Virus record (IMG/VR): IMGVR_UViG_3300035070_001240
Coordinates: 1-59,141 of that record
Length of the DNA: 59,141 bases
Source: a virus
Direction: 5' to 3' (one strand)
The notes beneath the pieces are model-generated. The model had not been told where the DNA came from and made no database searches. It saw nothing but the letters and a program-made list of their open reading frames with translations. Shown in pieces: positions 20,248 to 49,045 of the stretch. Within the stretch, counting starts at the first letter, position 1, and each line of letters begins with the position of its first letter. The translations under genes and the position numbers were made by a program.

Positions 20248-20709
20248 TTAAATATTCTTCTTACTATAGTTTGCTCGACCATAGCCACGCATGGCTTTAC
20301 CACAACCACGAACAGAACCACCCATATTATATTTTTTAATATGTCCACCTGATTTATTTACTGACATTATTTCTTCCAACCAATCAGGTTGGTCCTCATC
20401 AATTTCAAATAGACCAAGAAACTTCTCACGAGTCTTTTTAGGAGCTTTTACTTCTGAACGTTCTAATGCTTCTTGTGAAGGTGAAGAAGCACGACGACTA
20501 GGCATCTCTATATCTGACCGTTCTAAAGCTTCTTGTGAAGGTGAAGAAGCACGACGAACAGACTTTAATTTATCAATAGGAGCTTTTCTAATTGTCCTTG
20601 GTTTTCTGCTTTTTTCAATTAGCTTTTTTTCTTCTTCAAAAAGCTCATCTGCTTCTTTTTTTGCTTTTGCTTTTTTTCGTTCTTTTCTTAATGTTTCCAT
20701 AAGTGCCAT
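20248..20709 (-). CDS. Repeat-containing basic protein, 153 aa
   Basis: I start at the ATG at 20709 (MALMETLRKERKKAKAKK), which gives 153 aa. The N-terminal half is a charged helix. There follow two tandem copies of a 20-residue unit (RRASSPSQEALERS-type). The C-terminus is Gly-rich (YNMGGSVRGCGKAMRGYG), which recurs in many small phage proteins near terminase genes. The duplicated unit is a 60-bp direct repeat (20456 and 20516). Function unknown. The first bases overlap nothing and end in the terminase stop region. Confidence 0.6.
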   Translation of the reverse strand: MALMETLRKERKKAKAKKEADELFEEEKKLIEKSRKPRTIRKAPIDKLKSVRRASSPSQEALERSDIEMPSRRASSPSQEALERSEVKAPKKTREKFLGLFEIDEDQPDWLEEIMSVNKSGGHIKKYNMGGSVRGCGKAMRGYGRANYSKKNI

Positions 20710-20713
20710 TTTA

Positions 20714-22297
20714 TTAAAATCTCCAATATCCAATTCGTTTCTGGTTTGAATTATTATTATTATCTTGCATTTCTTCTATGAGGTAAGCATCCAATGGATG
20801 CTCTACTCTCCAAGAATCCTTCAAATATAAAATAGCCATTACCATCGCATCAACTTGGTCATCATATGTTGCGTTGGGAAAACTAACGGCTTCGTTAATT
20901 AAATCCTTTGCAAAAGGTTTATCTGGAAGATAGACCCGACCAGATTCTAGAATAGGAGTAGAAGCATTAACACGAGCTACTTTATCTCTATCTGGATTGT
21001 ATTCAAGAACAGGCAATCCAGCCCTTCGCATATCTTGAATAAGCGACTGACCGGATGCCTTTTTTTCAATTATAACAACGTCTGGTTCATATCTATCATA
21101 CATCTCTTGAGCAGTCATACGCAACTCTGGATATTCTAATCTATCTCTTTTATTTGAAAGAAGAATTAGATTATGAGTAAGATGTTCAAACCCGCCACTG
21201 TCTATTTGAATATTTTTAAAAATTCCCCACGTTTGAATAACAGAATAATCCGCTGAAGTTCTAGTTGAAAAAGCAGTATCATATGTTTGAATAACGAAGT
21301 CACAGTCTGGCGGCTCATCCATAAACTCCCAAGTTTTAAACCAATCCTTTTTAATGATTCCACCTTCATCTGGTGTTGGGTCTTGCATGTAGAGAGATTG
21401 CCAGTATTTGGTTCCGTTCTGTGAACGAATTTCAATCTCGTCCTTTTTTAAAAGATCGTTTGGTTTCCATTCAGGAAAATAAGAAGAACCAATTGGAAGA
21501 TTTAAAAGATTAGCTGAATCTTCATCCAACCAAGCTGGAATTTTAACAACTTCCCATTCATCAATTTTTACGTTGTCTTTGTCATCATCATCATCACTAA
21601 ATATATTTTCTTTTTTATGTTTAGCTTGTGTCTCTAAAAGCCAGCCGCAAATATCATCTTCATGATACCTTGTGTTAATGATTACGACACTACCATTAGG
21701 CATCAAACGTGTTCGTAGACCAGCGGGATACCATTCCTTGATGTATCTACGACCAGCTTCTGAGAATGCATCTTCTTCTGACATAACATCATCTAGAAGA
21801 GCAATGTGTGCACCTCGACCAGCAATTTGTGATCTAACGCCAGCAGCAATATAAACACCATTCTGGTTTGTTTGCCATTTACCAGCGGCACGTACATCTG
21901 ATCTAAGTGTAGTTTGTGGAAAGATTTCTTTATATAGTTCGTTGTTTACAATATCACGAACAGATCGTCCAAAGTCTGCTGCTAATTGGTCAGAGTGAGA
22001 GACAGAAAGTATTTCATGATTTGAATGTTTACCCATATACCAAGCAGGGAAAAGCTTAGAACAAATAACAGACTTAGAGGAACGAGGAGGAAGAAACACC
22101 ATAAGTCTTTTGATTTTTCCTTCATGTACTTTTTGAAGCTTGTCAGCAAGTAACTCAATATGCCTTCCTAATTTAAAATCAGCAATGAGTGAAGGAGCTA
22201 ATAGTTTAACGAATGTAAGAAAGTTTGAGCGAGATTTTAAGATAGCTTGCTCAAACAGTTTCTCTCGCAATTCCAGGTAGTCTTGTTTTTTTGACAA
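20714..22297 (-). CDS. Terminase large subunit
   Basis: This 527-aa protein has a Walker A variant (LPPRSSKS, residues 69-76), Walker B (LLDDVMSEED, 167-176), then a C-terminal RNase H-like nuclease with DTAFS..TSADYSVIQTWG and 'YDDQVDAMVMAIL' near the end. These give ATPase motor and headful or site-specific cutting activities. It works with the TerS at 22644 and the portal. The 118-aa gene lies between the two terminase genes. The length is normal for the family. Confidence 0.93.
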   Translation of the reverse strand: MSKKQDYLELREKLFEQAILKSRSNFLTFVKLLAPSLIADFKLGRHIELLADKLQKVHEGKIKRLMVFLPPRSSKSVICSKLFPAWYMGKHSNHEILSVSHSDQLAADFGRSVRDIVNNELYKEIFPQTTLRSDVRAAGKWQTNQNGVYIAAGVRSQIAGRGAHIALLDDVMSEEDAFSEAGRRYIKEWYPAGLRTRLMPNGSVVIINTRYHEDDICGWLLETQAKHKKENIFSDDDDDKDNVKIDEWEVVKIPAWLDEDSANLLNLPIGSSYFPEWKPNDLLKKDEIEIRSQNGTKYWQSLYMQDPTPDEGGIIKKDWFKTWEFMDEPPDCDFVIQTYDTAFSTRTSADYSVIQTWGIFKNIQIDSGGFEHLTHNLILLSNKRDRLEYPELRMTAQEMYDRYEPDVVIIEKKASGQSLIQDMRRAGLPVLEYNPDRDKVARVNASTPILESGRVYLPDKPFAKDLINEAVSFPNATYDDQVDAMVMAILYLKDSWRVEHPLDAYLIEEMQDNNNNSNQKRIGYWRF

Positions 22298-24801: not shown

Positions 24802-25902
24802 TTATTTAAATAAATTCCTTTTAATTTGTTCAATATCATTTTCAACCATATCAAATACAAGCTGCTTGAATGAAATAGATGGTTGCCAATTTAGATTTTC
24901 TCTAATCTTTGTACTGTCTCCTAGTAAATACTCAACATCAGAAGGACGATAGAAACGAGAATCAATCTTAATCAAAACTTCCTTTGTCGTACCATTCTTG
25001 TTAACAGCATATTCATACAGTCCCTTTCCTTGCCAATTTAGAATAATTCCAATCTTCTCAAAGGCCATATTGCAGAAATCCTTGACACTGTATGTTTCAC
25101 CAGAAGAAACAACATAATCCGTAATCTTACTTCCAGAAGTATTCAACATCAAATGCATTGCCTTGACATAATCCCTAGCATCTCCCCAATCTCTACGAGC
25201 ATGAACATTTCCTAACATGATTGGACCTTTGTTCTTGCCCGTAGCATATTGAGCAACACCATTGGTAATCTTTCTTGTTACAAAGTCCAATCCCCTACGA
25301 GGAGATTCATGATTAAACAGAATACCATTGACTGCATATGTGTTATATGTTTCACGATAATGTTTCACAGTTAGAAAAGCAGATAACTTGGCAATGGCAT
25401 AAGGAGACGTAGGCTTAAATGATGATTGTTCAGATAAACTTTTTTCAGTCCCTGTAGCTTCGTTACCAAATAATTCAGACGTAGAAGCTTGATAAAATCT
25501 AAACTGTTTTTTAAATACCTCTGTAAAGGCTTCCAGAAGCCCTACAACAGCAACTGCATTAATCTGGTGGGTGAGTACAGGAATTTTAAAACTCTCTCCT
25601 ACGTGGCTCTGAGCGGCTAGATTATACACTTCAATATAATTATCCATGATTGTCATGTAACTTGTCACGTAAGACTTAATAGTTTCCACAAATGATTTGA
25701 TAGAACCGTTATCTAAAAGATCAAGATTGATCAAAGTTAGATTAGGATGATCAATTAAATTGTGTAAACGAGTGTTATTGGATAGTGGAATGGATGTACG
25801 TCGAATACCAGCATAGACCTTATATCCGTTTTCTAGAAGATATTCCGCAAGATATGAGCCATCTTGTCCTGTAATACCAGTTATAGCAGCTAGTTTTTGC
25901 AT
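24802..25902 (-). CDS. gmd: GDP-mannose 4,6-dehydratase
   Basis: A 366-aa short-chain dehydrogenase/reductase of the extended type: NADP-binding GITGQDGSYL (9-18), the 'YNLAAQSHVG' stretch, catalytic STSELFG and YxxxK (YAIAK), and substrate-binding NHESPRRG (the family's 'fNHESP.RG'). It turns GDP-D-mannose into GDP-4-keto-6-deoxy-mannose, the entry to GDP-fucose, GDP-rhamnose or perosamine. The length is normal. It forms a pair with the sulfotransferase-like gene. No fucose synthase or epimerase gene is seen, so the host or another gene finishes the pathway. Confidence 0.92.
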   Translation of the reverse strand: MQKLAAITGITGQDGSYLAEYLLENGYKVYAGIRRTSIPLSNNTRLHNLIDHPNLTLINLDLLDNGSIKSFVETIKSYVTSYMTIMDNYIEVYNLAAQSHVGESFKIPVLTHQINAVAVVGLLEAFTEVFKKQFRFYQASTSELFGNEATGTEKSLSEQSSFKPTSPYAIAKLSAFLTVKHYRETYNTYAVNGILFNHESPRRGLDFVTRKITNGVAQYATGKNKGPIMLGNVHARRDWGDARDYVKAMHLMLNTSGSKITDYVVSSGETYSVKDFCNMAFEKIGIILNWQGKGLYEYAVNKNGTTKEVLIKIDSRFYRPSDVEYLLGDSTKIRENLNWQPSISFKQLVFDMVENDIEQIKRNLFK

Positions 25903-32932: not shown

Positions 32933-33453
32933 TGTTTGAAAAAATATTTAGCATTTCAAAAGATTTTCTATCAACAGAACAACGTGACAAGATGCTTGTT
33001 GATTTGTTTATCAACAAGAAGTTTTCCTTTCCACCTAAGTCTGACATTGGTAGAGAAATAAAGAATATAATCAAGGATCATAACAAGTCAAACAACTGGT
33101 ACTTCAATCTAGATCGTATTGAACATATTAAACTGTACTACATGGATAACGATAAGCCTTCTTCGTTTCCTATTATGCTGCCTTCTCTTGAAGTACCAAA
33201 GTCTATGCAGTATCATCAGAAGCAACGAAAGATTGTTGCATTTAGCAAGATCAACGATAACGTAGAAAATGTTATGGGTGGTGATCTTTATATCAAATCG
33301 TTTGATGGTATTAATCTAAATCTTACAGAGGTATCTAAACCTGGAGATTTGATTATCTTCCCTTCCTTTGTACCTTTCAACATTATACCCGTAGGTAAGA
33401 ATGAACGTGCTGTTTATCTACAGTGTATCATTCAAGGATTATCGTTTAGATAA
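32932..33453 (+). CDS. 2OG-Fe(II) oxygenase-like, degenerate (pseudoenzyme?)
   Basis: The ATG at 32932 shares bases with the preceding TAA. The 173-aa protein has the C-terminal half of the double-stranded beta-helix: MGGDLYIKSF, GDLIIFPSFVPFNIIPV and ERAVYLQ. Compared with the next gene it lacks the H-x-D pair. The distal His position is Phe (VPF149 in place of VPH162) and an Arg (R159) remains. It is probably inactive or uses a different iron site. It may act as a partner of the neighbour. Confidence 0.6.
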   Translation: MFEKIFSISKDFLSTEQRDKMLVDLFINKKFSFPPKSDIGREIKNIIKDHNKSNNWYFNLDRIEHIKLYYMDNDKPSSFPIMLPSLEVPKSMQYHQKQRKIVAFSKINDNVENVMGGDLYIKSFDGINLNLTEVSKPGDLIIFPSFVPFNIIPVGKNERAVYLQCIIQGLSFR

Positions 33454-33465
33454 AAGGATTGAAGA

Positions 33466-34023
33466 ATGTTTATTGACCCATTTTATTATATTCAAAGATC
33501 ATTCATTGACAATGATGAAGCGGAATATCTCGTTGATATTTTAAATAATAATTCCAATAATAAATTAAAAGCTTCAATAGAAAATGGAAGTGATTATAAC
33601 ATTAGATCAACTAATGTTTATTTTATGCCAGATGAAATATATAGTGATTTCAATAATATGTTCTATACTTATTGCCTTAATATAAATAATTTATTGGGAT
33701 GGAATTTTGATATTACTAATACTGAAACAGTACAATTACTTGAATATAAACAAGGTGATTTTTATAAACAGCATATAGATATATTAAATAAGAATAATAA
33801 AAATCAACAAAGAAAAATTACTGTAGTTGTTTTTCTTTCTAGCCCCGACACGTATGAGAGTGGCGAGTTTGTTTTGTTTGACGGCGGTGACGAGTTTTCT
33901 TTTCGGCTTGACAGGGGCGATGCGATTGTGCTACCGTCCTTCGTTCCTCACGAAGTTCGACAAGTTAGTAGTGGAACAAGATATTCTTTAACAGCCTGGA
34001 TCAGTGGACCCACATGGAGATAG
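33466..34023 (+). CDS. PKHD-type 2OG-Fe(II) dioxygenase
   Basis: A 185-aa protein with the whole iron triad: H103-x-D105 (KQHIDIL) and H162 (VPHEV), plus R172 (GTRYSLTAW) for 2-oxoglutarate. It matches the small PKHD hydroxylase-like enzymes common in marine phages. The first two-thirds are AT-rich. The stretch from about 33840 to 33960 coding residues ~125-165 is GC-rich, suggesting recombination. Its substrate is unknown (protein, nucleic acid or antibiotic-like). Confidence 0.78.
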   Translation: MFIDPFYYIQRSFIDNDEAEYLVDILNNNSNNKLKASIENGSDYNIRSTNVYFMPDEIYSDFNNMFYTYCLNINNLLGWNFDITNTETVQLLEYKQGDFYKQHIDILNKNNKNQQRKITVVVFLSSPDTYESGEFVLFDGGDEFSFRLDRGDAIVLPSFVPHEVRQVSSGTRYSLTAWISGPTWR

Positions 34024-34026
34024 GAT

Positions 34027-34410
34027 ATGAACGATGATGATCTTTTGGAAATACCAGACTTTCTAAAAAGAAAGTATGATCCTTCTAAAAAATTTAAAGA
34101 ATATAAAATAGAAAAGCGTACATGGGTCATGCCTGATATGGAATCGTTCAAGCGTGAAAGGGAAGAAAGAGAAAAAAGAAAACATGAAATCATTATAGAG
34201 AAGCAAGAAAGAAAACAAAGAAAGAGAAACAAGTTTAAGATTGAAGGATATGTTATTGAAGCTATGTCAAAAGGACATAACACTTTTGGACAAATTAAAA
34301 ATAACATTCCTTCTGATATTGAAGATAAAGATATTAAGACAGCTATAACTAGACTTATAAATAAAAATAAAGTAATCAAAGTAACAAGACGTATTTATAA
34401 ACTTAAATGA
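34027..34410 (+). CDS. Basic coiled-coil winged-helix-like protein, 127 aa
   Basis: The protein has an acidic N-terminus, then a long basic helix (REREEREKRKHEIIIEKQ-type heptads), then a winged-helix-like C-terminal region (IEGYVIEAMSKGHNTFGQI, ITRLINKNKVIKVTRRIY). The last resembles HTH domains of phage transcription regulators. It may bind DNA. The family is not recognised. Confidence 0.55.
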   Translation: MNDDDLLEIPDFLKRKYDPSKKFKEYKIEKRTWVMPDMESFKREREEREKRKHEIIIEKQERKQRKRNKFKIEGYVIEAMSKGHNTFGQIKNNIPSDIEDKDIKTAITRLINKNKVIKVTRRIYKLK

Positions 34411-34426
34411 AAGTAAAGAATAAGTA

Positions 34427-34666
34427 ATGATAAAATATGCTCTTGTTATTTGGATGGACGCAGCGACAGTAAATGATTGGCATGATTCAAAAGATGACGG
34501 CCCAACTATTGTTTATAGCTGTGGCTTGTTAATCAAGGACGAGCCAGAATATATCACTTTGTCATCCTGTCAGGAACAAGACGACATGACAGTCAACGGA
34601 AGTATTTCAATTCCACGATCTTACATTATTAAAATGGAGACACATGAATGGAAGTTCAAGTCATAG
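34427..34666 (+). CDS. Small protein, 79 aa
   Basis: A 79-aa acidic protein, MIKYALVIWMDAATVNDWHD, with a beta pattern and a late SISIPRSYIIKMETHEW. 'W.da.....W.d........v.s.G.l..d....i.ls' is frequent in phages and seems beta-rich. Unknown. It overlaps the thyX start by 19 bp, so the two may be coupled. Confidence 0.5.
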   Translation: MIKYALVIWMDAATVNDWHDSKDDGPTIVYSCGLLIKDEPEYITLSSCQEQDDMTVNGSISIPRSYIIKMETHEWKFKS

Positions 34667-35316
34667 ACTTTATGGGTTCTGATCTTACTGTAGTGAATGC
34701 AGCAAGAGTCAGTTTTGAAAAAGAAAGTGAAGCAGAATATTGGGAGTATCTAGATTTAGGACAAACGTCTGGTGACCTTGTAGCTGTCTTAAATGAAAAA
34801 GATCAGAAGCTTATTAAGTATCTAGCAAAGCATAATCACTGGACACCCTTTGGACACCCTCAAGTTACCTTCCGTATCAAAGCACCTATCTTTGTAGCAA
34901 GACAGTTAGGTAAGCATCAGGTAGGTATGGTATGGAATGAGGTTAGTCGTAGATACGTCGATAGTAAACCTGAGTTCTACCGACCATCTTCTTACAGACT
35001 ACGTGCGGATAATGTAAAGCAAGGGTCAAGTGACGAGACTACAGCGTGGATAAATAATGATTATTATGATACGTGTACATATGAATATGAGATGATGATT
35101 GAGGAGGGCATCTGCCCTGAACAGGCTCGTATGGTGCTGCCACAATCTATGTACACCAAATTCTTTTGGACCGGAAGTTTAGCAGCTTGGATGCGTGTGA
35201 TTAACTTACGATTGGATAGTCATACTCAGCAAGAGACAAGAGAAGTTGCGGAACAGATTGCAGGTCACATAAAGACCTTATTTCCTGTTTCCTACGAGGC
35301 TTTAATAAATGTCTGA
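34648..35316 (+). CDS. thyX: Flavin-dependent thymidylate synthase
   Basis: A 222-aa protein with the ThyX signature region K89-H90-Q91 then NEVSRRY (97-103). The family motif is RHR-x7/8-S; here the first Arg is Lys and the third is Gln. It also has GDL, PFGHPQVTFRIKAP, RQLGKHQVGM and LPQSMYTKFFWTGSLAAWM. It methylates dUMP to dTMP using FAD and methylenetetrahydrofolate. The gene is full length. The next gene is a homing endonuclease and then a second ThyX C-terminal fragment. Confidence 0.93.
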   Translation: MEVQVIDFMGSDLTVVNAARVSFEKESEAEYWEYLDLGQTSGDLVAVLNEKDQKLIKYLAKHNHWTPFGHPQVTFRIKAPIFVARQLGKHQVGMVWNEVSRRYVDSKPEFYRPSSYRLRADNVKQGSSDETTAWINNDYYDTCTYEYEMMIEEGICPEQARMVLPQSMYTKFFWTGSLAAWMRVINLRLDSHTQQETREVAEQIAGHIKTLFPVSYEALINV

Positions 35317-35653
35317 TATGTACACTGTGGCGTGGTTAGCTGGTTTATTTGAAGGCGAAGCTTGTTTCTCTATGTCTGTGGATAAAAGGTCAGGAGTACC
35401 TAGTTGTCGTATCCACTTCGAATCTACAGACTTGGATATTGTTAAGCGAGTTAAGAGCAACTTTAGAGGTAACTACTATGAAAATAAGGCCCCTTCTAAA
35501 CCCAAGCATTATCAACGTAGTTGGCGATGGCAATTAAATAAAAAACAGGAGGTATATGATCTTCTTATCTTAATAAAGCCATATATGTCTGTTAGAAGGA
35601 GGAAGCGTATTAACGAGTTACTTGTGTGTCTTAAGAAGAAGGGGGTAGATTAA
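35309..35653 (+). CDS. LAGLIDADG-type homing endonuclease
   Basis: A 114-aa protein with one LAGLIDADG-type motif (WLAGLFEGEACF at 9-20), so it would work as a dimer. It continues with CRIHFESTDLDIVKRVK, YENKAPSKPKHYQRSWRWQL and a lysine-rich C-terminus. This is the single-motif intronic or free-standing homing endonuclease form. Its ATG overlaps the thyX stop and its stop overlaps the start of the ThyX fragment. It would cut intron-free or allele-different thyX. Confidence 0.82.
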   Translation: MSDMYTVAWLAGLFEGEACFSMSVDKRSGVPSCRIHFESTDLDIVKRVKSNFRGNYYENKAPSKPKHYQRSWRWQLNKKQEVYDLLILIKPYMSVRRRKRINELLVCLKKKGVD

Positions 35654-35805
35654 TGTATTGGACTGGATCATTGGCAGCATGGGCTAGAGTATGTAAGCTA
35701 AGGCTTGACCCACATTCACAGAAGGAAACCAGAGAAGTAGCTGAAATGGTTTCCGGTTACATGGGTGATTTGTTTCCGGTTAGTTGGAAGGAGTTAATGA
35801 AGTGA
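35653..35805 (+). pseudogene. Detached ThyX C-terminal fragment
   Basis: An ATG-started 50-codon ORF encodes MYWTGSLAAWARVCKLRLD continuing to PVSWKELMK. Thirty of 50 residues are identical to the C-terminus of the intact ThyX upstream, which is about 60% identity, but the DNA differs. It cannot fold as a ThyX. It may be a remnant of a split gene or be translated as a bystander. Its ATG shares a base with the endonuclease stop. Confidence 0.8.
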
Positions 35806-36038
35806 GTATCAAGATTACTCTAGAGCTTAAAGAAACTGATATGCAGGATCAGATTACTGTACAGGTATTACAGAAGATTGTGTACGATACTAAAGCTGAT
35901 CTAAAAACCTGTTGGCATACAAACGATATTAAGCGTAGAAAGAAAGTATCTAAAGCTGCGAAGTATCTGCTTAAGAATTGGTTACTTGACCAGTCAGAAG
36001 CAGACAAGTTTGAACGTGACCTTGAGGAGGTAGGGTAA
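35802..36038 (+). CDS. Small basic helical protein, 78 aa
   Basis: I start at a GTG (35802, overlapping the ThyX fragment's stop) preceded by AAGGAG. It reads VSIKITLELKETDMQDQIT and has a helix-rich basic middle (DIKRRKKVSKAAKYLLKNW). Unknown; possibly nucleic-acid binding. The stop is shared with the next gene (one base). Confidence 0.5.
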   Translation: MSIKITLELKETDMQDQITVQVLQKIVYDTKADLKTCWHTNDIKRRKKVSKAAKYLLKNWLLDQSEADKFERDLEEVG

Positions 36039-36424
36039 TGGATTATTGCGACCAGTGTACTGATCATGAAGAATGTCGTTCCGCAGGATGTTCAAATCCT
36101 CGGAGACACCCCCAACAATTATCAAATAATGGAAACATCGTATATCCCAAACGGGGTACAACGCAACAGGAAGGTGACAAATTACTATTCTGTCATCAAT
36201 GGATTGCGGAACAGGCAAGAAATATCGAACGCCTACAGCAGATCATTGCCGAGAAAGACGCCCAGCTTGATGCCTTTGGTATAAAGTACCCTCAAATGCT
36301 CGACAACGTGTACAACGATGCACTGGAAAAAGCAGCGACTATTGTCGAAAGCAGGGGTGTTGATGGAACTCGCTACACAATCGCCGGGATCATACGAGAT
36401 AATAAGCGGAAATATAGAGGGTGA
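36038..36424 (+). CDS. Cys-rich N-terminus protein, 128 aa
   Basis: A 128-aa protein starting MDYCDQCTDHEECRSAGCSN, four cysteines in a zinc-finger-like order, then a coiled-coil region (ERLQQIIAEKDAQLDAFG). The gene is GC-richer than the phage average. Unknown function; resembles small regulatory or anti-host proteins. Confidence 0.5.
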   Translation: MDYCDQCTDHEECRSAGCSNPRRHPQQLSNNGNIVYPKRGTTQQEGDKLLFCHQWIAEQARNIERLQQIIAEKDAQLDAFGIKYPQMLDNVYNDALEKAATIVESRGVDGTRYTIAGIIRDNKRKYRG

Positions 36425-36428
36425 CGCA

Positions 36429-36629
36429 GTGAAAGACGTTGAGGCCGTACACAGAGAGAATGGCATCGCTCTGTTTAACGATGGGACAACGGCAGAGATC
36501 ATCGACTGGTACGATGACAGCGGAGACTACTGCGAACCGGAAGACGCATCTTTCGCCATCGTCGGAGATATCAGGACGGGGTACTGGACTATTGATCTGA
36601 GTAAATTTGAGAAAGTGAAGACACAATGA
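36429..36629 (+). CDS. Small acidic protein, 66 aa
   Basis: The start is ambiguous: a GTG at 36429 (VKDVEAVHRENGIALFNDGT) preceded by AGAGGG is the most likely, and a longer frame begins at 36318. It ends DLSKFEKVKTQ and has a beta-type core with many Asp/Tyr. Unknown. GC-rich patch. Confidence 0.45.
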   Translation: MKDVEAVHRENGIALFNDGTTAEIIDWYDDSGDYCEPEDASFAIVGDIRTGYWTIDLSKFEKVKTQ

Positions 36630-36853
36630 CAAAATGTAACCAATGTGATGATGGTACGCTTCCATGCTCTTGTAACAAAGCCCAGTTGCCTACACCGCAC
36701 CCGCAGCCAAGCCTAATAGATCGTCTTAAATTTCAGCGCAAAAGTGCATTAGAAAAACTGGCCGATATCGACGAAGCAATGAGATTGCTGGCTGACAATC
36801 CTGATCTGGAAAAGGCGTTCTTGCGGCTAAAAGAATTAGATGAGAGGTGGTAA
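36626..36853 (+). CDS. Small protein with CxxC motifs, 75 aa
   Basis: A 75-aa protein beginning MTKCNQCDDGTLPCSCNKA with four cysteines, then PHPQPSLIDRLKFQRK and an acidic helical end. It looks like a zinc-knuckle protein with a helix. Unknown. Confidence 0.5.
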   Translation: MTKCNQCDDGTLPCSCNKAQLPTPHPQPSLIDRLKFQRKSALEKLADIDEAMRLLADNPDLEKAFLRLKELDERW

Positions 36854-36873
36854 TAAATGAGCGAGGACGAGAC

Positions 36874-37098
36874 ATGAAAGAAACTGTTCTAAACGGCCCG
36901 ACGGTACAGCAGATGATCGACCACCTATCCCAATACCCGATGGATGCGCCGTTGCGTATTGAAGACGCCGACACCTACTGGACGATCCACAAGATACACG
37001 TCAGCCAAGGAGGTGGTGTCGTCTGGCTTAAAGGCGAATACACCGAAATGAACAGCGGCGGTCGCTTCGATAACGTGCCGGAGCCGGAATCAAAATAG
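36874..37098 (+). CDS. Small beta-rich protein, 74 aa
   Basis: I start at the ATG at 36874 (MKETVLNGPTVQQMIDHLSQ), nearest after GAGCGAGGACGAG. The protein has PMDAPLRIEDADTYWTIHKI and ends NVPEPESK. 'P.dapl.i.d....w.i..i' is common in small phage proteins. It is GC-rich. Unknown. Confidence 0.5.
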   Translation: MKETVLNGPTVQQMIDHLSQYPMDAPLRIEDADTYWTIHKIHVSQGGGVVWLKGEYTEMNSGGRFDNVPEPESK

Positions 37099-37110
37099 AG
37101 GAATTTGACT

Positions 37111-37581
37111 ATGCCTAGAAATCTGACGAATATGGATACTATTGATATTCTTAAAAAGAACATATACGATCTACAGCTATCTTTGGCAAGGGCTTATAAA
37201 AGAATTAAAGACCTAACTAATAAAACTTCCATTGTCACTAGACAGTGGGGATATTATGAAGTCTACGATGATAAGTTAGGAGATAGCAGTGAAAAAGTTA
37301 AACTTAAAAAACTTGTTGTCTACCCTGGTAAAAAACTTTCTATGCAGAAACATAAAAATCGTGCAGAGCTTTGGTTCTGTGCGGAAGGGATTGCCGATGT
37401 TTACTCCCTCGATGACAAGGGAAACACCATCGAAACTTTTAACTTGACACCGGGGGAGACTGTGACTATCCTGCCGGAAAAGTGGCACAGGCTTACTAAC
37501 AATACATCTCATAAAGTGGTAATCATAGAAATTCAATATGGTAAAGAATGTGAGGAGAATGACATTGAGCGATATGTTTAA
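37111..37581 (+). CDS. Cupin: mannose-6-phosphate isomerase type II C-terminal-like
   Basis: I start at the ATG at 37111 (MPRNLTNMDTIDILKKN). Residues about 50-150 form a cupin with RAELWFCAEGIADVY, then ETVTILPEKWHRLTNNTSHKVVIIEIQYGKECEENDIERY. That order is the C-terminal domain of type II phosphomannose isomerase/GDP-mannose pyrophosphorylase. 156 aa. It would interconvert fructose-6-phosphate and mannose-6-phosphate, feeding the Gmd pathway. No nucleotidyltransferase domain is present. Its 3' end overlaps the next gene by 23 bp. Confidence 0.75.
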   Translation: MPRNLTNMDTIDILKKNIYDLQLSLARAYKRIKDLTNKTSIVTRQWGYYEVYDDKLGDSSEKVKLKKLVVYPGKKLSMQKHKNRAELWFCAEGIADVYSLDDKGNTIETFNLTPGETVTILPEKWHRLTNNTSHKVVIIEIQYGKECEENDIERYV

Positions 37582-38128
37582 TGATAGTGAAGCAAAGGAA
37601 ATAAAGAATTATTGTAACGCTGTATTTGATGGATTGAGAAAAGCGAAGGCTAAAGAACGAGTACAAAGTCCACATATGGATGGAAGACAAATTAATCTCC
37701 AAGGACTAGCAGCGGAGATTTGGTTTAAAAAGAAACATAAAATTCCATATGATTTATCCATCATTGATGATAAACCAAGGTCATATCTAAATGACATTGA
37801 TGTTAAAGTAAACGGAAAGATATTTGAATTAAAACAAACAGCTCACGAGAATGGCTGTTTATTTTTAAGACATGTAGATTGGTATGGTAAACCAATGAAG
37901 TTTATCGCTGATGTATATGTTCTTATTATCGGTAGCTTTCCAAACTATAAGAATGATTTATTTATAACTCGTGAAGAGTTTGTATCATTAAATCAAAAAC
38001 CTAGAATGCACAAACGTATTGGAAAATACGGGTTCTTTGTAGAACAATCCGACATGTATGAAACAATTGAAGAGGCTATGCAATACAATGTCATCAGAAA
38101 TAGTCAAGTCTCACCAACCATGTCCTGA
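37559..38128 (+). CDS. PD-(D/E)XK-type nuclease-like protein
   Basis: The ATG at 37559 (MTLSDMFNDSEAKEI) is likely. Then comes GLAAEIWFKKKHKIPYDLSI, NDIDVKVNGKIFELKQT, and a beta/helix tail. The 'G...E...' helix, D in NDIDV, then E-x-K in FELK, with correct spacing, match the catalytic core of PD-(D/E)XK nucleases. 189 aa. It may be a replication or repair nuclease or restriction-like factor. It overlaps the primase-helicase start by about 41 bp. Confidence 0.6.
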   Translation: MTLSDMFNDSEAKEIKNYCNAVFDGLRKAKAKERVQSPHMDGRQINLQGLAAEIWFKKKHKIPYDLSIIDDKPRSYLNDIDVKVNGKIFELKQTAHENGCLFLRHVDWYGKPMKFIADVYVLIIGSFPNYKNDLFITREEFVSLNQKPRMHKRIGKYGFFVEQSDMYETIEEAMQYNVIRNSQVSPTMS

Positions 38129-46762: not shown

Positions 46763-49045
46763 TTATTCACCATACAGAGATTTAAAATCTGGTTTTATTG
46801 TATAGTTAGACCCTCTAAACAACGAAGGGGCTACACCTTCTCCATAAACAAATATATCCATATCAACCTCATTCTCTCTGTTTAGCAAAGCCTCAAAGTC
46901 TTGAGACAAGGCTAATAGCTCACCAGTTGTATAGAATATATCTTCTTCCTTTGTCTTTGGATTTAGAATACCAATTTTAATCCATTTCTTCTTTCCATAC
47001 ATATCGACTTCATCAAGGTCTTCTGGAACACCTTCATGGCAGCAGTCCATACCAAAGATATGAAACTCTCTGAAGCCTAGTGTATGTCCGATACCAATTG
47101 TACGCATTGCAGAGCAAGTACCGCCAGTAATAAGTTCCTGATCCTGTAACTCTTGCATGTCAATAAGAGCGTTTGTGTAAGCATGCCAGCCAATAATGTT
47201 AGCCCCTTTCTCAACAAGATACTTTGTAACATCAATGTTAGTCATGCTTGCGACAAAGTACTTTACCTTTGGATGAGGATCAGCTAACAATTCTCTACGA
47301 ACAATACCGTGCGTAGATGTTCCATCAAATGGACGAGGATCAAGAATAACACAACCCCAAGGAATGATACCATTCTCAATCAATGTATTATGAGAATGCT
47401 TAACACAGAAAACCTTTGCTCCGTGCTTCTGAAGTTCCTTAATCTTATCTAGATTTTTTACAAGAGAAGGACCAGCGGAAGCTAAGACAAGTTTACCATG
47501 ATGCCAGTGGCAACGCTGTACCATATTATCATTGAACAACTTCATGTTTTCACGAACGTTGTTTTGAATGTTATCAGGGGGTACACAATCTCTTGGATTA
47601 ACTTGAACAGGAACCTTGTGTGTATCTGGTGGATTTGGAAGGCTAAGATCATTCAGAACAACAGCAAGGTTTACATGTCCACCACCGGCTACTCTATCGC
47701 CCGTAGAGATAATGAACCTACGTTGTTCACCCGTACGATCAGTACCACCTAGTTCCTTATAAATATCGTTGACGCCTAAAAACTCTGTAGGCATTTTTCC
47801 TTGTTCATCTTCTGTATAATAATCATCCAGAACGATAACAGGAATGTCCTTACAAAGCTCATAGTCACTACGTACAGTTTCAGTAGAATGTCCACCATCA
47901 ATGAAAACAAAGTCAGGCTTTACATTATACATATTACAAAGGCTAGGATCGTTTAGAATACTTAACTTACTTTTTGAGTCGCCCTTCATTAGATAAAATG
48001 TTAAAGTCTTATTTATCTTTGCGTACTCTTTAGCAAGATCAGTTAGCTTTAGTTCAACAGACTTCTTTGTATAATGCTTCTTTACATTAAACTCTTCCTT
48101 ATCTGTTTCATCCGTAGCGTCTTCAAATAGATCAATACCAGTGTAGTGAACAGTGTCGTTAGCCTCAAAGGCAGATTGGATCATTGCACAAGCTGTATCG
48201 CCATTCCATGTGCCAATCTCTAGAATGTTCTTACGCTTATAGTGTTTGACCATAGCACATAGATCAACATACCTACGTGCCTTGAAGTTTGGATTATTTC
48301 CAGAGCCGTACTTCTTGTTACCCTTTAGATGAACAATATGATTACCTAGAGGAGATAAATCAAAAGCATCTAGTCCTTCACAGTTCGGTGTAAGATCATG
48401 TGTAACCATGCCATGAGCTTCATGTAGAATGCGAAGACGATCAAAGACATAGTTATCAGCAAAGCATTGTAGCTTTAGAACCTCGTCTGAATTATAGTAG
48501 TTAACATAATCAGTCATGAAGACTTCTACTATGCCAGGATTGATATTATAACCAATAAGAGAAGAACATGTGGCATAGGCATTCTTACGGCCTAGATAGA
48601 CTATATCAGCTTCATCGTTAAATGTCTGGCTTAACAACTCTTCTGTGATAGGCTCATACGTTACACTGTCCGCATCCAACCAAATCAACCACTGTGCATT
48701 TCCACCATCACGGTCTAGAAGATAATTCATAGCCATGTGTTGAGCGTATACCTTGTGGCTAAACTTCACGGCATCTTGATAGAAGTTATACGTATTCTTT
48801 CCAGCCTTACCATCAAACTGTTTGTTACGTTCCTTAAATTCAATTAGCCGGTCATTGTCTAGTAGATCAAAGTAATGAATGTTATCGGCTTTAGGAGCGT
48901 TGTCTGGTAGGGGATAACCATCACAATAACAAAGAAGTTGAATATCCTTCGGCCAATATTCAATGAAGCTATTTAGAAAACGTTCACCATATACATCCCA
49001 ACTTTTAACTGGAAAAGATGTAACAATCGTGTATTTATTTGACAT
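46763..49045 (-). CDS. Three-domain GT - SAM methyltransferase - DUF115-like fusion
   Basis: 760 aa. Residues 1-250: a GT-A-like domain with a DxD in IWLDADSVTY (D124, D126). Residues about 268-470: class I methyltransferase with NILEIGTWNGDTACAM (SAM loop), YTGIDLFEDAT and PDFVFIDGGHSTE (methyltransferase_24 style). Residues about 510-740: DUF115/MptE-like domain, KLVLASAGPSLVKNLDKI and WGCVILDPRP. Such a fusion could build or modify sialic-acid-like or flagellin-type glycans. The substrate is unknown. It follows the smaller GT by 7 bp. Confidence 0.7.
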   Translation of the reverse strand: MSNKYTIVTSFPVKSWDVYGERFLNSFIEYWPKDIQLLCYCDGYPLPDNAPKADNIHYFDLLDNDRLIEFKERNKQFDGKAGKNTYNFYQDAVKFSHKVYAQHMAMNYLLDRDGGNAQWLIWLDADSVTYEPITEELLSQTFNDEADIVYLGRKNAYATCSSLIGYNINPGIVEVFMTDYVNYYNSDEVLKLQCFADNYVFDRLRILHEAHGMVTHDLTPNCEGLDAFDLSPLGNHIVHLKGNKKYGSGNNPNFKARRYVDLCAMVKHYKRKNILEIGTWNGDTACAMIQSAFEANDTVHYTGIDLFEDATDETDKEEFNVKKHYTKKSVELKLTDLAKEYAKINKTLTFYLMKGDSKSKLSILNDPSLCNMYNVKPDFVFIDGGHSTETVRSDYELCKDIPVIVLDDYYTEDEQGKMPTEFLGVNDIYKELGGTDRTGEQRRFIISTGDRVAGGGHVNLAVVLNDLSLPNPPDTHKVPVQVNPRDCVPPDNIQNNVRENMKLFNDNMVQRCHWHHGKLVLASAGPSLVKNLDKIKELQKHGAKVFCVKHSHNTLIENGIIPWGCVILDPRPFDGTSTHGIVRRELLADPHPKVKYFVASMTNIDVTKYLVEKGANIIGWHAYTNALIDMQELQDQELITGGTCSAMRTIGIGHTLGFREFHIFGMDCCHEGVPEDLDEVDMYGKKKWIKIGILNPKTKEEDIFYTTGELLALSQDFEALLNRENEVDMDIFVYGEGVAPSLFRGSNYTIKPDFKSLYGE

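Follow-up and report, generated by a model that had tools for sequence, protein, structure and literature searches.

Why a phage should carry a complete gene for flavin-dependent thymidylate synthase (thyX), followed directly by a homing endonuclease gene and then by a second copy of just the ThyX C-terminus, is the question raised by the locus described here. It lies in a 59,141-nt virus record of a marine phage (the whole stretch that was analysed, hereafter the window), with a DNA polymerase nearest to that of the Pelagibacter phages HTVC104P/103P (45%) and a portal protein nearest to those of 023Pt_psg01, HTVC027P, HTVC023P and CRP-901/902 (40–41%). The features of the locus are as follows:

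34648..35316, + strand: thyX, flavin-dependent thymidylate synthase, 222 aa, full length (Pfam Thy1)
34661..34979, + strand: resident-family 5' part of thyX, to about codon 110 (DNA identity to L003/L004/L005)
34980..35160, + strand: variable middle of thyX, holding the upstream recombination joint (sliding identity)
35161..35316, + strand: replacement 3' end of thyX, codons 172–222 (DNA identity to L003/L004/L005)
35309..35653, + strand: LAGLIDADG homing endonuclease gene, one motif (AGLFEGE), 114 aa (Pfam, PDB profile)
35650..35656, + strand: junction between element and native sequence, with the endonuclease stop and the aromatic-residue codon preceding the WTGS motif (same codon in L083)
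35653..35805, + strand: ThyX C-terminal fragment, 50 codons, frame open (Thy1 profile and identity to L005)

Layout of the thyX locus

The coordinates and frames of the three genes are exactly those of the original prediction, and Pfam matches agree with its reading of a thyX overlapped by a single-LAGLIDADG endonuclease and then by an ORF for a ThyX C-terminus. The 222-aa ThyX matches Pfam Thy1 over profile positions 2–191 of 191 (E 2.6e-47) as well as T. maritima ThyX (TM0449, E 9.6e-37), and the 50-aa ORF matches positions 149–190 of Thy1 only (E 3.1e-6). As predicted, the fragment is identical to the full gene's own C-terminus at 30/50 residues (60%; 40/50 positive, E 3e-22) and the DNA has diverged, to about 60% identity with the 3' end of the full gene. 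A simple recent duplication, for which near-identical DNA had been expected, is ruled out by this value and by the fragment-specific states not being shared, and the idea that the 50-aa ORF is an independent gene was discarded because all of its matches listed in the phage collection are annotated as thyX. The end of thyX and the start of the endonuclease gene share 8 nt (ATGTCTGA), which suggests translational coupling, and the stop of the endonuclease gene and the first codon of the fragment overlap in TAATG.

The 114-aa ORF matches Pfam LAGLIDADG_1 with 27.9 bits (curated cut-off 23.1, E 4.4e-6), phrog_5046 (E 1.6e-16) and I-AniI (E 3.5e-9, PDB profile match using a four-sequence profile), so that profile matches support both the LAGLIDADG motif and the fold. 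The dN/dS values were 0.08 and 0.05 in two homologue pairs, and by this comparison the endonucleases are under purifying selection; site-specific cleavage and homing are putative activities of the protein, to which this selection and the insertion at a fixed codon lend indirect support. A group I or II intron was rejected, as there was no Rfam match at E 0.5 in 33000–38000, the RNA folds no better than shuffles (z-score +1.96) and thyX is complete without splicing; an intein was likewise rejected, the endonuclease being out of frame with thyX, with its own start and stop and no Pfam splicing domain.

Among the 323 thyX loci fetched, a second ThyX end was seen only in the window and in L083 (seen again as L249), and both loci with this second C-terminus also carry an endonuclease of the window type, which argues that the combination of fragment and endonuclease is not due to chance. 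No record had a second ThyX match in the 50,697 phage records searched (1846 records with ThyX, 1846 places).

Elsewhere in the window there are genes for a GDP-mannose 4,6-dehydratase (24802–25902, Pfam E 1e-105) and a mannose-6-phosphate isomerase-type cupin (37105–37581, Pfam E 2e-18), which together suggest that the phage modifies sugars. The window also encodes a 760-aa protein with methyltransferase and MptE-like domains (Pfam) after an N-terminal stretch without assignment (46763–49045), and a predicted protein with an almost exact repeat (RRASSPSQEALERSDIEMP / RRASSPSQEALERSEVKAP; 20248–20733).

Origin of the two thyX ends

Intact thyX genes lacking the endonuclease had been anticipated in relatives, and three such alleles (L003, L004 and L005) were found and used as native references. 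L003 is from approximately the same phage, with a right flank 98.2% identical over 2792 nt and a left flank 96.2% identical over 211 nt; its thyX is intact and the endonuclease is absent from the contig. The 5' part of the window thyX (to about codon 110) has a DNA identity of 88–90.6% to L003, 88–89.6% to L004 and 80–81% to L005, whereas the 3' end of the full gene (from codon 172) is only 57–58% identical to each of the three, of which the native 3' ends are 69–77% identical among themselves. The downstream fragment is 65% identical to L003, 70% to L004 and 84% to L005 in DNA, and the L005 C-terminus has an amino acid identity of 90% to the fragment vs 58% to the end of the full gene, with the homology between fragment and L005 spanning 35655–35808 and reaching the native stop. 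As the fragment is closer to the native alleles than the end of the full gene is, it represents the old end and the end of the full gene is foreign. On these identities the full thyX is a chimera, in which the first 110 or so codons belong to the resident family and the 3' end does not, and the downstream fragment is the displaced old thyX end of the resident allele family, in line with the prediction that the full 3' end was of different origin and that the old one had been left. The chimeric gene is predicted to be functional, apparently, and its replacement 3' end probably came in together with the endonuclease.

Sliding identity showed that from nt 511 of the L003 gene the native alleles return to about 90%, whereas the window gene stays low. 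Since codons 111–171 vary among the native alleles also, the upstream joint cannot be located precisely. In marine phage thyX these codons are far more variable than both ends among alleles which are otherwise 90% identical, and L004 and L005 are 97% identical in codons 111–171, yet 12% apart in their 5' ends, which points to frequent recombination inside thyX. Two thyX versions at the two ends of the 43-kb contig IMGVR_UViG_3300043410_000336 (L011 and L031, 82.7% DNA identity overall) have identical C-termini and different middles, and may represent either strain variants at the ends of a circular contig or another thyX recombination.

Compared with L003, the 5' part of the window thyX has diverged further (90.6% identity) than the flanks have (96–98%), and the window is also unlike L003 in the stretch between the upstream gene and thyX, which points to repeated recombination at the locus. 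Two observations suggest a second recombination joint at the thyX start: the initial codons of the window thyX (34648–34671, MEVQV) match those with which another small ORF of L003 begins (MEVQVLRSKEIEMKI), and the window lacks about 1 kb of small genes that precede thyX in L003 (L003 220–1300).

At the junction, codons 172–174 read TGGTACTGGACAGG in 5/5 native alleles and TTCTTTTGGACCGG in the replaced gene, so that the two sites differ at the centre, and a search for a palindromic cut site at this position gave no convincing symmetry. The junction lies ahead of Arg188, which aligns with the dUMP-binding Arg174 of T. maritima ThyX (expression tag not counted); an insertion upstream of Arg188 without a spare end would probably inactivate ThyX. 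The phylogenetic comparison of the fragment with the full gene, which had been put forward as a check, gave a divided outcome: the identities support separate origins, but in AU tests on 48-codon trees the sisterhood of fragment and proximal end was not rejected for the window (p 0.21 and 0.28), as the proximal end is a long branch without close relative, and this is a true limitation for the window. A donor of this proximal C-terminus was searched for and not found.

Related loci in other viruses

The only close relative of the window endonuclease in the viral collection (63% identity) is that of L083, a different virus, in which a full thyX, the endonuclease and a ThyX C-terminal fragment are found in the same layout and the endonuclease terminates at the same thyX codon. 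The 5' part of the L083 thyX and its fragment each have 81% amino acid identity to L251, the proximal end has 65%, and the fragment groups with the L251/L254 clade (support 100/91); L083 shows, by these comparisons, the same chimera pattern as the window. What the sequences show up to this point is the gene layout, a chimeric thyX, a fragment of native origin and a second virus with the same junction.

A wider endonuclease search identified a mirror image in L340 and L341, where a 46-codon thyX N-terminus is followed by a related endonuclease (35% identity to that of the window) and a full thyX, the start of which falls within the endonuclease gene. These two loci are about 4–5% apart and have this layout in common. 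The N-terminal fragment of L340 is nearest to the endonuclease-free L451 (83%), whereas the proximal N-terminus has 93% amino acid identity to L368, another virus with the same endonuclease ahead of thyX, and 65% to L451; the rest of the gene is 73% identical to L368. Between L340 and L368, dS is 0.95 for the endonuclease and 0.86 for the first 46 thyX codons, but 5.6 (saturated) for the rest of thyX, and the shared block runs from the start of the endonuclease gene and fades within thyX. Because the endonuclease and the replacement N-terminus have the same divergence while the rest of thyX is saturated, they moved together, and we regard the L340/L368 pair as direct evidence, at the sequence level, for joint transfer of the endonuclease with one thyX end. 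The proximal N-terminus of L340 groups with L368 (support 100/98), and the sisterhood of the two L340 N-termini is rejected (AU p 4e-5), the AU test being significant for L340 only and not for the window. An endonuclease between a full host gene and a fragment of its end is thus seen in the window and L083 (3' form) and in L340/L341 (5' form).

In a tree of 75 endonucleases, those adjacent to thyX form one clade (support 84/90) with a single label change, a group of which the query sequences are themselves members. Other clade members lie directly after thyX (L330/L331, L332/L333) or directly before it (L162, L166, L329, L351 and L368), and thyX fragments beside any of these did not score above shuffled controls. 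When the two flanks of each of 125 related LAGLIDADG loci were compared in six frames, in search of the same layout at other genes, credible adjacent cases emerged only at thyX: L365 turned out to have a duplicated endonuclease tail instead, and the matches in L445, L433, L434, L439, L413, L429 and L408 were set aside by orientation and position. The mirror arrangement at the 5' end, in which the endonuclease and an end of thyX are inherited together, and the single thyX-tied endonuclease clade are likewise shown by these alignments and trees.

One clade member, L162, is the isolate Rhizobium phage RHph_N3_13, with the endonuclease upstream of thyX. In RHph_I3_11 (L527) the endonuclease is absent and the corresponding position holds a thyX of a very different kind, between flanks 93 and 98% identical to those of RHph_N3_13, so the endonuclease and the whole thyX differ together there. 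With RHph_N3_19 (L528) included, these Rhizobium phages have two very different thyX classes at one place, within flanks of 93–98% identity.

A probable homing element with a spare gene end

Two known systems resemble the phage locus. In the yeast WHO elements of Torulaspora and Lachancea, which target FBA1 (Coughlan et al. 2020, PMC7282813), the endonuclease is proposed to cut a sensitive allele, upon which repair copies the resistant end of the donor together with the endonuclease, and the old end of the recipient becomes a downstream fragment and later a second homology arm (PMC7282813). The phage locus shares with WHO an endonuclease placed after a complete, chimeric host gene and before what used to be the 3' end of the recipient, fragments which begin at about one position, host gene 5' and 3' portions of conflicting history and, presumably, resistance via the changed sequence of the replaced end, as proposed for WHO (PMC7282813). 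In contrast, the yeast protein is a nuclear intein-zinc finger fusion with meiotic homing and an aldolase target, and cleavage was shown for WHO6 (PMC7282813), whereas the phage element, for which cleavage is a prediction, encodes a 114-aa single-motif LAGLIDADG protein, targets thyX and also has a mirror 5' form. Membership of the WHO family proper was rejected, as the 114-aa protein is LAGLIDADG only and lacks the intein-zinc finger fusion.

The second system is the mORFs of fungal mitochondria, described in the available part of Beaudet et al. 2013 (PMC3630166) for atp6 of Allomyces and atp6, atp9, cox2 and nad3 of Glomus, where a LAGLIDADG (or GIY-YIG) gene follows a foreign C-terminus fused to the native gene, and the native C-terminus is displaced downstream and is closer to relatives than the inserted one. 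The cases in that part of the source are C-terminal only and concern mitochondrial respiratory genes, whereas here both ends of a phage thyX are involved. The free-standing seg and mob endonucleases of phage T4 likewise adjoin a conserved gene, and flanking sequence is co-converted with them, but they differ in that they insert between genes or split them, and the available part of PMC2988022 describes no displaced duplicate of a host gene end. In the open-licence literature searched we found no report of phage elements of this end-replacing kind, and the match for LAGLIDADG, thyX and phage together concerns inteins. The working principle is known from WHO and mORFs; its occurrence in a phage and in a 5' form seems to be new.

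We consider it probable that the locus is a free-standing, thyX-specific homing element which brings its own replacement end of the host gene and does not require splicing. In a co-infected cell, a LAGLIDADG homodimer would cut the resident thyX at the conserved codons around W172–W174 (putative cut near codon 172 of native thyX, ATGTAYACNGARTGGTACTGGACAGG), and the break would be repaired from the endonuclease-bearing phage, where the 5' sequence of thyX would provide the left homology arm and the 3' fragment downstream of the endonuclease the right one. For the L340 endonuclease, the site would be expected at codons 45–48 (NK|HWSP) of L451-type thyX. The recipient would acquire the donor's thyX 3' end and the endonuclease, its thyX would be whole, now with a diverged and presumably uncuttable site, and its old 3' end, displaced behind the endonuclease, would form the new fragment and later the second homology arm; neither intron nor intein would be necessary for this cycle. 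Cleavage, its exact site, the immunity of the replaced end and the role of the fragment as an arm are what we infer, and a fragment serving recombination fits the second homology arm of the WHO model. Such an element appears able to invade thyX without breaking the gene, leaving the old end as a fragment. We also lean, with somewhat less confidence, towards the view that phages have a dedicated thyX-targeting LAGLIDADG lineage, which would spread by putting a resistant copy in place of the host gene's own 3' or 5' end.

The original prediction had proposed two steps: first a thyX split by the endonuclease, then an unrelated recombination through which the gene regained a complete 3' end ahead of the endonuclease. 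The end product would be identical, and split genes with an endonuclease between the halves are known in phages, with mobE in nrdA as an example (PMC2988022). However, the same coincidence would be required in L083 and, reversed, in L340, while in L340/L368 the endonuclease has diverged to the same extent as the gene end. Moreover, the check suggested with that proposal, an endonuclease inside an intron or a split gene, brought up no split thyX without a restored end among the 323 loci, and finding the same endonuclease and proximal end in several diverged thyX backgrounds would count against two steps, which is already so for the 5' form. No crippled intermediate is needed, since end and endonuclease move as a unit in L340/L368 and WHO elements and mORFs act in one step (PMC7282813, PMC3630166), and we therefore regard the two-step history as unlikely.

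A scenario in which the thyX 3' end was duplicated locally, in tandem, about the endonuclease insertion and the proximal copy then diverged fast is compatible with the AU result for the window, but a local duplicate should have most of the fragment-specific states, and these are not preferentially found in the proximal end: at differing sites it matches the fragment vs the native allele 10 v 8 times in the window, 8 v 10 in L083 and 13 v 10 in L340. With sisterhood rejected outright for L340, this explanation is already strongly disfavoured and improbable. It is more improbable still that an ordinary free-standing endonuclease came to lie beside thyX amid general phage mosaicism, with the fragment as incidental debris. 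Other clade members do adjoin an intact thyX without a fragment, and Rhizobium phages N3_13 and I3_11, which are 93–98% identical in the surrounding sequence, differ in all of thyX as well as in the endonuclease; this leaves unexplained, however, why the only two C-terminal fragments in 323 loci and the N-terminal one sit exactly at the far edge of the endonuclease, and why dS of endonuclease and gene end match. An assembly artefact merging two phage populations can practically be dismissed, for although all fragment-bearing cases (window, L083, L340 and L341) are metagenome contigs, two diverged viruses, each from a different metagenome, have the junction codon in common, L340 and L341 share their layout despite their divergence, and the reading frames are unbroken, with overlaps of a few bases.

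Bringing a spare end would be a third mode, besides introns or inteins and simple intergenic insertion, for phage homing endonucleases to coexist with an important gene. It would be a phage parallel to the WHO elements, thought to be the source family of the yeast mating-type endonuclease HO, and if the dedicated phage lineage exists, terminal-replacement homing has an origin separate from those of the yeast WHO elements and the mitochondrial mORFs, with a 5' form undescribed in the open-licence literature searched. The cultured Rhizobium phages with and without a clade member form a natural pair in which part of the model is testable. The model predicts allele-specific thyX cutting between co-infecting phages, a form of phage-phage conflict, which would drive rapid mosaic evolution of a nucleotide-synthesis gene and, if true, helps to explain the mosaicism of phage thyX.
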